Source: Microcaldota archaeon
GTDB taxonomy: Archaea; Micrarchaeota; Micrarchaeia; Micrarchaeales; CABMGC01
DNA length: 37,924 nt
Assembly: GCA_021803945.1 (NCBI GenBank)
Contig: JAJZKW010000010.1
Location: 1 to 37,924, forward strand
Direction of reading: 5' to 3'
The position numbers and the translations under genes were made by a program. Below the pieces are notes generated by a model that saw only the letters and a program-made list of their open reading frames with translations, ran no database searches and was not told where the DNA came from. Positions 32,702-37,924 of this stretch are shown here, in pieces. Every line of letters begins with the position of its first letter. Positions within the stretch are counted from its first letter, which is position 1.

Positions 32702-34510
32702 TCATTGTACCGCATTCTTTCCGGTTATCCTGTATATGTGGAAGGTGACATTCCAGCTATATCCAGTATAGTTCTGCGTGGCTACGTCCTCCATGGTGTA
32801 ATTTCTCATTATGTTGCTGCACTCTGTCTGCGTGTCTGAGTAGATCGTGCCAGACCTTTGCCCTATATAGCAGCTTAGGCCATAGTCAAAGTACAGGCAT
32901 TTGTTGGACATGTTTGAGAGTATACTGGAGTATTCGGGGATGCTTATCCATGTCGCATAGATATTCGCCCTGCCGATAACATACCAGAATGGGGGCTTGA
33001 AGGTCACCACGGTGCAGTTCTGGGGTATTTTGTTGTAGTTTGCAAGGAGGAAGTTCTCGTCTGCCCTTTCCCCCGCAAAGGCTGCCATTGCTGAAGGAGG
33101 CTGCGCGGTTATGGTTATGAACTGGAATGCAGGCAAGGATATGAATACTATGAAAAGCGCGATCAGTACGCTGAAATTTGCGCCCTGGCTTTTTTTCCTG
33201 GGCTTTTTTGAAGCAAGTTTCTTCTTGATCAGGTCGTATGAATAAACAAACCCAAAACCTGAAAACAGGGACAATGCAGCGAAGTCACCTAGAAAATACC
33301 TGACATCGTCTCCCAGGCTGTAAAGCACCCCTCCTGCGTAAAAAGCCGTGTAAAACGTGAAAATGGCAGCGAATAGTATGAAGAGCGCGGTAAATTCCCG
33401 GAACTTTCTTCTTGCCAGCATCCCTGCGGCCCCGATAAGCGCAAATATGGTTATTGTTACAGGGAATTCGATGTGATATGCAAAATTATAGTACGAGGCC
33501 CCCTGGTTCTGCACTGTGTCGAATGCGCCGAACCAGAATTGCACGTTTGAAATGGCATTGCTTTCGAAGTTCTGCAGGCTTATCATTGACTGGTTTGCAT
33601 TGACAGCCGCTCCGAAAGAGTGCTGAAGGGCGAAATGGAGGAATATTGCCTGTGGAAATGCAGCTACGGCAAAGATTAGGACGAGCAAGGCCAGTTCGGC
33701 TTTTTTCGGCTTTGTGCCGCCCTTTTTTGACCAGCTCCTGTCGACCACAGCAATTCCGAGGATAATCGGGAGTATGATGACGCCATCGGCCTTCAGGGTC
33801 ATTAAATAGGCGATGGCAAACAATGCAGAGATTCCTATCCTGAAGTCCCTCTTCCTGAGATACATCAAAGACAGCAGCACGGACAGAAGGATGAAGCAGA
33901 GCACGGATATGTCAGGTATGGTGGTCCTTGAATAGCTCATGAACAGGGGTATCGATGCAAGGGCTATGCTTGACATCAGCGAATACCTCTCGTCTTCGAA
34001 GAGGATGTATGAGACAAAGAAGATCAATACCACTGAGATTATGCCGAGGAGGAAGGTAGTAGAATAGGCCACGGCTATATTTATGCCGAAAATGCCAAAT
34101 GCGATTGCAAGCAGCATAGGCCATCCGCCTGGCTGGTGGAAGAATCCTATCGTGCCAGGCACGCAGTTGGTTGCCGTTGAGAAGCTGCATATGCCGAAAA
34201 GATGGTCCATGAGCATGGACTTTGCCATGCTCATGTATATGTATTCATCATTGTACAAGAGATGGTAATTCTGCACAAACGAGACTTCAAGGAAGATGAA
34301 TACCAGTACTGTTATCAGCAGGTATTTTAGGTACTCTTTATTCACGTTCCGAAAGTAGCCTGATATCCTCTTTGCATTGGCTGCCAGGCTTAAAACAAGG
34401 GCTGCGAGCAGGGCAATGTAATAGAAGAAAAATATGTGGTTGAAATTATTGGAGAATGGCAGGAAGACATGCGAAAGGATATTAAACAGGAAGGTCATAG
34501 AGGTTTGCAT
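32702..34510 (-). CDS. GT-C fold membrane glycosyltransferase (PMT/ArnT-like)
   Basis: NDEYIYMSMAKSMLMD acidic motif in the first extracytoplasmic loop, about 11-13 TM segments, HQPGGWPMLLAIAFGIFG. Confidence 0.75.
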   Translation of the reverse strand: MQTSMTFLFNILSHVFLPFSNNFNHIFFFYYIALLAALVLSLAANAKRISGYFRNVNKEYLKYLLITVLVFIFLEVSFVQNYHLLYNDEYIYMSMAKSMLMDHLFGICSFSTATNCVPGTIGFFHQPGGWPMLLAIAFGIFGINIAVAYSTTFLLGIISVVLIFFVSYILFEDERYSLMSSIALASIPLFMSYSRTTIPDISVLCFILLSVLLSLMYLRKRDFRIGISALFAIAYLMTLKADGVIILPIILGIAVVDRSWSKKGGTKPKKAELALLVLIFAVAAFPQAIFLHFALQHSFGAAVNANQSMISLQNFESNAISNVQFWFGAFDTVQNQGASYYNFAYHIEFPVTITIFALIGAAGMLARRKFREFTALFILFAAIFTFYTAFYAGGVLYSLGDDVRYFLGDFAALSLFSGFGFVYSYDLIKKKLASKKPRKKSQGANFSVLIALFIVFISLPAFQFITITAQPPSAMAAFAGERADENFLLANYNKIPQNCTVVTFKPPFWYVIGRANIYATWISIPEYSSILSNMSNKCLYFDYGLSCYIGQRSGTIYSDTQTECSNIMRNYTMEDVATQNYTGYSWNVTFHIYRITGKNAVQ

Positions 34511-34522
34511 TTTTCTTCCTTC

Positions 34523-35254
34523 TTACGTTTTCTTGCAGCAGTTCTCAGATGCCATCTTGGCCGCAAGCATCTCTGCGATTCGCCTTGAGATAGTCCCGTT
34601 GAGATGGTTTGTATATCCGTTGATTACCACGGTGCCCACTGCATTGTTGAAGGAGAATATGCTCGTATACTGGTAATCCGGCATAAGGAGGATTGCGTTA
34701 GGAGGGCTTATGTCTGTTGCATTGAACACGGCTATCGAGCTTATTGTGTATATATGAATGCTACCTCCTGAGGAGCTGTAGTTGGAGATGTTTGTGCTGT
34801 TTAGCACATATCCTCTTATTGACTGGTTGGCATTGTTGCTGAACAGCATGCTGTTCACCGATTCTGCGGCAGAACTGCTGTTGTTCATAAGGAACACTAT
34901 GACTCCTATTGTCTTTGGGAGGGTTGAAAGGTTGTTGAGGTCGCCAGAAAAGTTGAAGATGGAAGATGATGAAGCCAAGTAGCCGAGATTCTTGAGGACT
35001 GGCGAGAATGGAGTAATCCTGCCGGTGTATATTGGTATATAGCTGGAATTATGCGTTGCTGCAGCTATGTCGGTTATATTCAGGTTAGGTATGTTGTAAG
35101 CTATGGATTGAGTTATGCTGCCAATCTGCGAAGCAGGAAGCGTATTGAGATTGCTAGAACGGAGGACTGCGAAAACAATGGCAACAATCAGTAGGAGTAT
35201 TACGATTGTTGTGGAATCTGACTGCCATGCGTCTTTTCTTTTTCTCCTTCGCAT
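34523..35254 (-). CDS. Single-pass surface protein (operon member)
   Basis: N-terminal TM TTIVILLLIVAIVFAVL, Asn/Ser/Thr-rich ectodomain. Confidence 0.7.
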   Translation of the reverse strand: MRRRKRKDAWQSDSTTIVILLLIVAIVFAVLRSSNLNTLPASQIGSITQSIAYNIPNLNITDIAAATHNSSYIPIYTGRITPFSPVLKNLGYLASSSSIFNFSGDLNNLSTLPKTIGVIVFLMNNSSSAAESVNSMLFSNNANQSIRGYVLNSTNISNYSSSGGSIHIYTISSIAVFNATDISPPNAILLMPDYQYTSIFSFNNAVGTVVINGYTNHLNGTISRRIAEMLAAKMASENCCKKT

Positions 35255-36976: not shown

Positions 36977-36982
36977 AACACT

Positions 36983-37924
36983 TTAAGTTATTAGATAGCC
37001 GTTGACTATGTAATCATCTATTGGTGCAGTATTTATATCATACAGAGTGAATGTCCCATTGAGTATCTTTATGCTTGACACCGTGATGGTCTGGTTCGTG
37101 AGTGGATCAAACAGGCTGTTGCCCAGTTTTAGGTTTGCTGCCCGCACATCCTTGCCGTTTACAATCAATACCTCTCCTGCATCAACCTTCAGGTTGTTGT
37201 TTATTATGTACTCATTTGGAGAGGTGTGAGTTTTGACCGCGATTACCATTGTCGGCTCGAGTTTCTTTGCTACAAAGTTGTATCCCAGGACCATCGTTCC
37301 TGGAGTTATGCTGCTTACACTGGCAGCCGCACCGTTTGCTAGAGTAATTAGCGCATCCCCTGTTACTGATACGCAGCCTGTTTCTCCTGAAACAGTAGTA
37401 TCTTTGTCTATAAGGAAGCCATTTGCAATGTAATTGTTGATTGGAGATCCAAGCAAGTCGTAAACATTTCCTCCAGTATTCGAGATAGTTATGTCTGTTA
37501 TCGTTACGCTCTTATTGATCAATGGGTTGAACAGACTATCTCCTGCCTTCGCACTAGACGCTGTAGCCCACTTGCCATTGATCAGCATTATCTCGCTTCC
37601 GTCAACTTTCAACTTGTTGTTGAATGTATACGTATTATTCGCAACAAGCAGGTAAACGCCTGACACGAATGATGGTTGCAGTGCGTGCGTAACCAGATTA
37701 TACGACATTATAACTGCGCCTGACTTTATCTTGCTGGCCTGAATGGCGGTGCCGTTTGCAAGCGTGATATTGGCATTTCCATATACAGAGCCTAAGCACC
37801 CGGTTGCTGAGTTTGTACCAGAATTTGTGGCTTTGTTTGTAGCCTTGTTGGTTGCTTTATTGGTTGCACCATTGGTTGCGCCATTGGTAGCACCATTGGT
37901 TGCGCCATTGGTAGCACCATTGGT
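36983..37924 (-). CDS. Tandem Hint-domain protein with (TNGA)n linker, 5' truncated by the window edge
   Basis: The track ORF stops at an internal Met (37708), but the frame stays open to 37924: TNGATNGATNGATNGATNGATNKATNKATNKATNSGTNSATG-CLGSVYGNANITLANGTAIQASKIKSGAVIMSYN... Two internal repeats, starting at Cys 37798 and Cys 37375, match the Hint pattern. Confidence 0.7.
   Translation of the reverse strand, partial: TNGATNGATNGATNGATNGATNKATNKATNKATNSGTNSATGCLGSVYGNANITLANGTAIQASKIKSGAVIMSYNLVTHALQPSFVSGVYLLVANNTYTFNNKLKVDGSEIMLINGKWATASSAKAGDSLFNPLINKSVTITDITISNTGGNVYDLLGSPINNYIANGFLIDKDTTVSGETGCVSVTGDALITLANGAAASVSSITPGTMVLGYNFVAKKLEPTMVIAVKTHTSPNEYIINNNLKVDAGEVLIVNGKDVRAANLKLGNSLFDPLTNQTITVSSIKILNGTFTLYDINTAPIDDYIVNGYLIT
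37799..37924. repeat. 12-bp coding tandem repeat (TNxx linker), continuing past the window edge
   Basis: Forward units gcaccattggtt / gcgccattggta alternate as a 24-bp higher-order unit at 37865-37924; degenerate TNK/TNS units extend to 37799. Confidence 0.9.

Follow-up and report, generated by a model that had tools for sequence, protein, structure and literature searches.

Gene content of the locus

The window analyzed here, namely the entire 37,924-nucleotide stretch of contig JAJZKW010000010.1 (hereinafter C19) of the Microcaldota archaeon assembly GCA_021803945.1 (Micrarchaeota; Micrarchaeales), includes five minus-strand genes that encode, in this order, a protein with two Hint domains, three single-pass ectodomain proteins (here denoted Ecto) and a membrane glycosyltransferase (GT). 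All five open reading frames (ORFs) were confirmed in the ORF reading of the window at the positions given in a preliminary description, and the genes lie nearly end to end, with intergenic gaps of 6, 34, 2 and 12 nt from the Hint gene to the GT gene, exactly as had been claimed. The features are as follows (window coordinates unless indicated otherwise).

C19:40040-40121 (approximate start; L005:6984-10121), minus strand: full Hint stalk gene, from the full-contig ORF reading
36983..37924, minus strand: 3' part of the Hint gene (ORF with its stop at 36983, still open at the window edge)
37805..37924, minus strand: Thr/Asn-rich (TNGA/TNKA)n stalk linker (tandem repeats, 12/24-nt unit; similar linkers in relatives)
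37394..37804, minus strand: first Hint domain (Ser1 37787-37789, Asp 37601-37603, Glu 37592-37594; D-x-x-E for T-x-x-H)
36986..37393, minus strand: second Hint domain, at the extreme C-terminus (Ser1 37367-37369, Asp 37181-37183, Glu 37172-37174; ends with YLIT, no HN)
36038..36976, minus strand: EctoA-1, 312 aa (EctoA family; short cytoplasmic N-terminus, one transmembrane helix, N/S/T-rich ectodomain, possible weak PsbP/DcrB-like fold)
35257..36003, minus strand: EctoA-2, 248 aa (EctoA family; paralogue of EctoA-1)
34523..35254, minus strand: EctoB, 243 aa (EctoB family; single-pass ectodomain protein)
32702..34510, minus strand: GT-C membrane glycosyltransferase (PMT_2 by Pfam), 602 aa (adjacent, outside the conserved core)

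The compositional and domain features previously noted for these genes hold as well: Asn, Ser and Thr make up 31-36% of the ectodomains, the PMT/ArnT-like product of the last gene matches Pfam PMT_2 with 48 bits against a cut-off of 26.1, and the Thr-rich (TNGA)n linker is encoded by a tandem array of 12/24-nt units at 37848-37924. In front of the Hint gene, a TATA-like box, CTTATATA, is located 19-49 nt upstream of the candidate start codons; the box also occurs before paralogous copies of this gene. On the plus strand, at 31977-32616 and convergent with the GT gene, a 77-aa ORF overlaps a PIN-domain gene (Pfam PIN_2, 1e-24), a pair that looks like a putative toxin-antitoxin module.

Architecture and genomic copies of the stalk gene

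The edge of the window is not the end of the contig, which extends to position 42159, and reading of the full contig rules out the possibility that the Hint repeats are an artefact of the window edge. The complete gene on C19 encompasses ~1045 codons and is read across a single 100-N scaffold gap, the size of which is only nominal; we infer the join across this gap, which is located in the stalk linker, and gap-free relatives that share the same architecture support it. The encoded stalk protein consists of a pilin-like hydrophobic N-terminus, five divergent InlB B-repeat stretches (PF18998, E 7e-52), a (TNxA)n stalk and two C-terminal Hint domains. The N-terminus, WRKVQPSIEYLSTFAVALLLL..., is hydrophobic and class-III-like, and a class III signal-like motif (resembling xQSAxEYLxTYGW) is found by pattern in 28 of 32 N-termini, with Pfam PF04021 matching only one of eight, at E 0.08.

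The stalk parts of the Hint proteins are nearly devoid of charge, with 2.8% D+E and 1.9% K+R, and the ectodomains encoded in the window contain 2.8-3.4% D+E, compared with 12.4% D+E and 13.2% K+R for canonical inteins of the phylum and ~12% D+E for two exported proteins from other Micrarchaeota families (L101 and L096, discussed below). We read this low charge as an acid signature. Micrarchaeales are reported to be acidophilic (PMC12892359), and the source organism itself presumably inhabits an acidic environment.

The same genome harbors several relatives of the stalk gene. A second, divergent full-length pilin/InlB gene is located on C7, whereas a third, directly upstream of the Hint gene on C19, contains a Cys-rich tail in place of the Hint domains; this sister gene is followed by a gene for a 183-aa single-pass protein and runs off the contig (L005:10153-12160; C19:40152-42159). 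A one-Hint copy is found at the end of C1, with an EctoA-like and an EctoB-like gene behind it, and C9 and C1 each begin, on the left, with an N-terminal piece of a stalk gene. Four contig ends (both ends of C1, the left end of C9 and the right end of C19) all lie inside one ~160-nt segment of the stalk gene, from which we infer near-identical copies that break the assembly. In addition, a stalk gene remnant at L006:7690-7887 (C1:27689-27886) consists of the promoter region and the first codons (KWRKVQPS) joined to the internal sequence RTGSIGSC, an internal deletion that suggests recombination among the stalk gene copies.

Conservation of the operon and the place of the glycosyltransferase

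The three single-pass proteins of the preliminary description are all present but do not comprise a single family. EctoA-1 and EctoA-2 are paralogous (30% identity, E 6e-26), whereas EctoB represents a different family, with 21 members in the loci that were read. The possibility that EctoB is another EctoA paralogue was rejected given that no pairwise similarity was found, although the profiles of the two families meet in L071. Neither EctoA nor EctoB could be matched to a described family. The structural model of EctoA (pLDDT 66.9) yields weak Foldseek matches, largely of the PsbP/DcrB/EagT6/PknH type (best E 4e-3), so that a PsbP/DcrB-like fold is a lead only. No match to known phages was found.

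A Hint profile search produced matches in 51 of 301 genomes and 31 of the 126 genera of the phylum. The weak matches are mostly ordinary inteins; the strong, pilin-linked matches are confined to two families of one Micrarchaeota order, three of them in Candidatus Micrarchaeota MAGs (SKS1.bin82, clean425). For 35 pilin-Hint genes, 900 nt or more of downstream sequence is available; 27 of these genes are followed by an EctoA- or EctoB-family gene that starts -60 to +40 nt from the Hint stop codon; at all 27 loci except L071, this first downstream gene is EctoA, and EctoB comes next at many loci. Conversely, when EctoA was compared with the 301 genomes, the strong matches, with few exceptions, adjoin Hint genes or Hint fragments. 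In two genomes without a Hint match (G253 and G039), EctoA either follows or lies among pilin-like genes whose tails are Cys-rich; this arrangement implies that EctoA is a partner of the stalk, with Hint being one of at least two alternative tips. The locus of G039 (L126:6889-11565) contains several pilin-like genes with similar Cys-rich tails, with EctoA-like genes both among and after them, and thus represents Hint-free tandem modules.

The conserved unit is pilin-Hint > EctoA > (EctoB). The description as an undescribed surface operon is accordingly supported for the Hint-stalk, EctoA and EctoB genes, which are syntenic in two families, and the proposed search for the same order in other Micrarchaeota recovers this core, but not the GT. 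At no other Hint locus read is a GT gene adjacent to the Ecto genes, and on synteny we reject the GT as part of the operon core. A looser link is detectable: members of the close subfamily of this GT (E below 1e-100) are found at 9 places, and at 6 of these a Hint or EctoA gene lies no more than ~10 kb away (distances judged by eye from the coordinates), and more distant paralogues in these genomes (E ~1e-50 and weaker) show no such proximity. The GT is therefore possibly linked to the operon loosely, rather than being a core member. The original proposal that the five genes form one functional O-glycosylated unit served by a GT of its own could draw on these proximities and on the 12-nt gap in the window, but the GT neighbor is missing from most Hint operons, and the nearest same-genus relatives that carry the operon (G172 and G176) have no close GT copy at all; we consider this arrangement unlikely.

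A Hint domain with altered active-site positions

The AlphaFold2 model of the first Hint domain (pLDDT 92.8, pTM 0.85) has 58 Foldseek matches in the PDB at E<=0.001, those listed being inteins, BIL, Vint and Hedgehog domains; the BIL2 structure 6y75 is matched with a TM of 0.87, and the NpuDnaB intein and Hedgehog are matched as well. On the basis of this modelled horseshoe-shaped, all-beta fold, the domain can be confidently assigned to the Hint superfamily. No paper on Hint domains in Micrarchaeota was found in the open-access literature.

To describe the active site, we used an alignment of 49 domains (~32 after weighting) in the intein register, denoted class I. The position of the intein nucleophile, Cys1 or Ser1, is filled by Ser1 in 47 of the 49 domains, and the block-B motif T-x-x-H is replaced by D-x-x-E, with Asp and Glu each present in 47 of 49, a level of conservation equal to that of the Gly and Tyr residues of the fold itself. 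The block-B stretches of the window domain and of the canonical C-terminal Hint domain of L096 fall into an ungapped register (NDKIRATGEHPFFVNGKW / NNKLKVDGSEIMLINGKW). Within a protein stripped of charge, the invariant Asp and Glu are notable. The block-F His is gone, and the C-terminal His-Asn, the +1 Cys/Ser/Thr and the C-extein are all absent from class I domains, which end with LID or LIT where the protein stops. The residue at position -1 varies (G, V, C, N, T, S). A second group, class II, includes seven domains of the same order (L090, L095, L097-L100) with Cys1 and T-P-x-D-Q-P; the C-terminal His-Asn is missing from both classes. By comparison, the canonical Hint domains that served as controls within the phylum (eRF1-, Mrp-like and RtcB-like inteins, and the exported L101 and L096) retain C1, TxxH and HN. 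A canonical splicing intein is excluded by the missing TxxH, HN and C-extein. Similarly, the Hint processing of the surface structure that had been suggested earlier is not to be assumed given that neither TxxH nor the C-terminal HN is retained, even though Ser1 is.

Several of these loci have features of their own. At L096:1565-1972 (G300), a large protein that is apparently secreted ends in a canonical Hint domain (Cys1, TGEH, VHN), with an in-frame TGA immediately before the domain (STGG*GCFLKG). The exported-looking protein of L101:968-3667 (G119) contains a tandem pair of canonical Hint domains with a membrane segment after it; the protein belongs to a different family and has ordinary charge. 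At L100:9164-11587 (G262), a single in-frame TGA separates the InlB-like part of a class II stalk gene from its Thr stalk, and EctoA follows.

In the domain tree, 17 of the 18 second tandem domains cluster together, and another group combines the first domains that match them with most of the single ones. Each group spans both families (f1 and f2), with Ser, Asp and Glu kept in both, which implies that the altered site was maintained through the split of the families, unless it was spread by transfer. These observations bear on the notion that surface genes happen to end in eroding inteins or BIL domains that hitchhike without selection. Mobility is common among Hint domains, and the two exceptions in the alignment, which lose all three residues, are the truncated, decayed second domains of L076 and L085 (sister species). 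Nevertheless, the persistence of tandem copies across two families, the conservation of the operon and the retention of Ser, Asp and Glu in 47 of 49 domains make neutral decay scarcely credible, and we reject it.

Comparison with known systems

The chemistry of inteins, BIL domains and Hedgehog domains mainly relies on the residues Cys, Thr and His. The bacterial and eukaryotic intein-like (BIL) domains (for example, BUBL BIL2 of T. thermophila, 6y75; C. thermocellum BIL, 2lwy) are similar to the domains described here in the Hint fold (TM 0.84-0.87) and in their setting, that is, a variable region of non-conserved, secreted or surface-type proteins, without a +1 nucleophile. They differ in the canonical Hint active-site motifs, which are absent here: Ser1 is found instead of Cys1 and D-x-x-E instead of T-x-x-H, there is no C-terminal HN, and the location is always the extreme C-terminus. 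The Hedgehog Hog domain (1at0, 6tyy) likewise is a C-terminal Hint domain that ends an exported protein, the architecture seen in the loci read, and here, too, an N-terminal acyl shift without splicing would suffice. However, Hedgehog employs Cys with Thr/His, in contrast to Ser, Asp and Glu in class I and Cys1 with T-P-x-D-Q in class II; the sterol-recognition region is lacking here, and the identity is only 8-9%. PT-HINT (PF07591) is the best Pfam family for 15 of 41 members (best E 6e-7), but the window protein scores 27.0 against the gathering score of 27.7, and nothing lies C-terminal of the Hint domain, so that no toxin would be released.

In terms of chemistry only, there is an analogy with sedolisins (serine-carboxyl proteinases, S53), in which Ser-Glu-Asp takes the place of the Ser-His-Asp of subtilisins in an acid habitat, although the fold is unrelated and these are true proteases acting in trans; subtilisin-like proteins in general contain Ser-His-Asp or Ser-Glu-Asp triads (PMC11593635). 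The VARTIG modules of Thermococcales (PMC8416519) are comparable in layout only: a large secreted stalk protein with a variable C-terminal part is followed by an array of genes for secreted or membrane proteins, but VARTIG contains Ig domains rather than the pilin-InlB-Hint combination.

Possible functions of the Hint tip

Our preferred interpretation, held tentatively and at somewhat less than even confidence, is that the locus represents a surface-stalk operon specific to a lineage of acidophilic Micrarchaeota, with a Hint tip whose rebuilt Ser-Asp-Glu site is capable of Hedgehog-like cleavage or transesterification. Under the proposed mechanism, the pilin-like stalk protein would be exported with its C-terminus outward, with EctoA and often EctoB as partners, and between one and three Hint domains would sit at the distal tip of the stalk. 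Through an N to O acyl shift, Ser1 would attack the peptide bond that precedes it, with Asp and Glu standing in for the block-B Thr and His as acid-tolerant general acid/base helpers. Without a C-terminal Asn or a +1 residue, splicing would be impossible, so the ester would either be hydrolysed, releasing the tip, or be passed to an outside nucleophile, resulting in Hedgehog-like anchoring or cross-linking, perhaps to a host cell. Some inteins that lack the block-B or penultimate His still splice via compensating changes (PMC7664689), so the loss of His alone is no proof of inactivity, and the conservation of the replaced positions points to a Hint domain that is probably still chemically active. 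Two observations run against the proposal: class II domains of the same order keep Cys1 with T-P-x-D-Q, which indicates that the acid habitat does not force the Ser/Asp/Glu set, and the residue at -1 is variable, unlike the Gly that precedes the Cys of Hedgehog. The advantage in acid, the target and the host-contact role of the tip are accordingly put forward as conjecture.

The strict conservation of Ser, Asp and Glu is what a ligand or metal site could show as well. The main rival explanation, a serious one although it too falls short of an even chance, is that catalysis was lost and the Hint domain became a compact binding tip of an adhesin, with Ser1, Asp and Glu forming a pocket for a ligand or metal in the cleft of the former active site. 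The loss of TxxH, the block-F His and the C-terminal HN, the distal location on a long stalk with InlB-like repeats, and the substitution of Cys-rich tails for Hint in sister genes that also precede Ecto genes are all compatible with such a tip. Yet the conserved residues sit exactly at the nucleophile and block-B positions, and position 1 is Ser or Cys in all but the two decayed domains, a restriction that a generic pocket would not need.

A further possibility, in our view quite improbable, is a self-made internal cross-link, that is, a Ser1-Asp/Glu ester or, in class II, a Cys1-Gln thioester, which would stiffen the tip or capture a target covalently, as in Gram-positive adhesins. The pairing of Cys1 with T-P-x-D-Q in class II would suit such a bond, but to our knowledge no ester or thioester cross-link has been described in the Hint fold. 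In adhesins, cross-links of both kinds are driven by acid-base-nucleophile sets (PMC10619420, PMC12679949).

Returning to the preferred reading of a rebuilt, active site, what is described here adds a variant to the Hint family and has a reasonable prospect of representing a new catalytic class. The Ser-Asp-Glu set suggests a new, possibly acid-proof, surface chemistry. In its most specific form, which we regard as rather unlikely, this would be a self-cleaving or transesterifying Ser-Asp-Glu Hint class that works extracellularly at very low pH and covalently fixes, releases or cross-links the stalk tips of a symbiont, possibly onto its host archaeon. If the rebuilt site is indeed active, the Hint fold, too, would be able to change its catalytic class, with the Ser-Asp-Glu swap kept across two families, and an acid-stable self-processing tool would become available. 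Filaments have been seen at the contact between Micrarchaeota and Thermoplasmatales and appear to reach the micrarchaeal S-layer (PMC8975820). The operon described here provides concrete candidates for the surface structures that contact Thermoplasmatales, and the Hint-tipped stalks may be the surface by which these tiny archaea touch their hosts.
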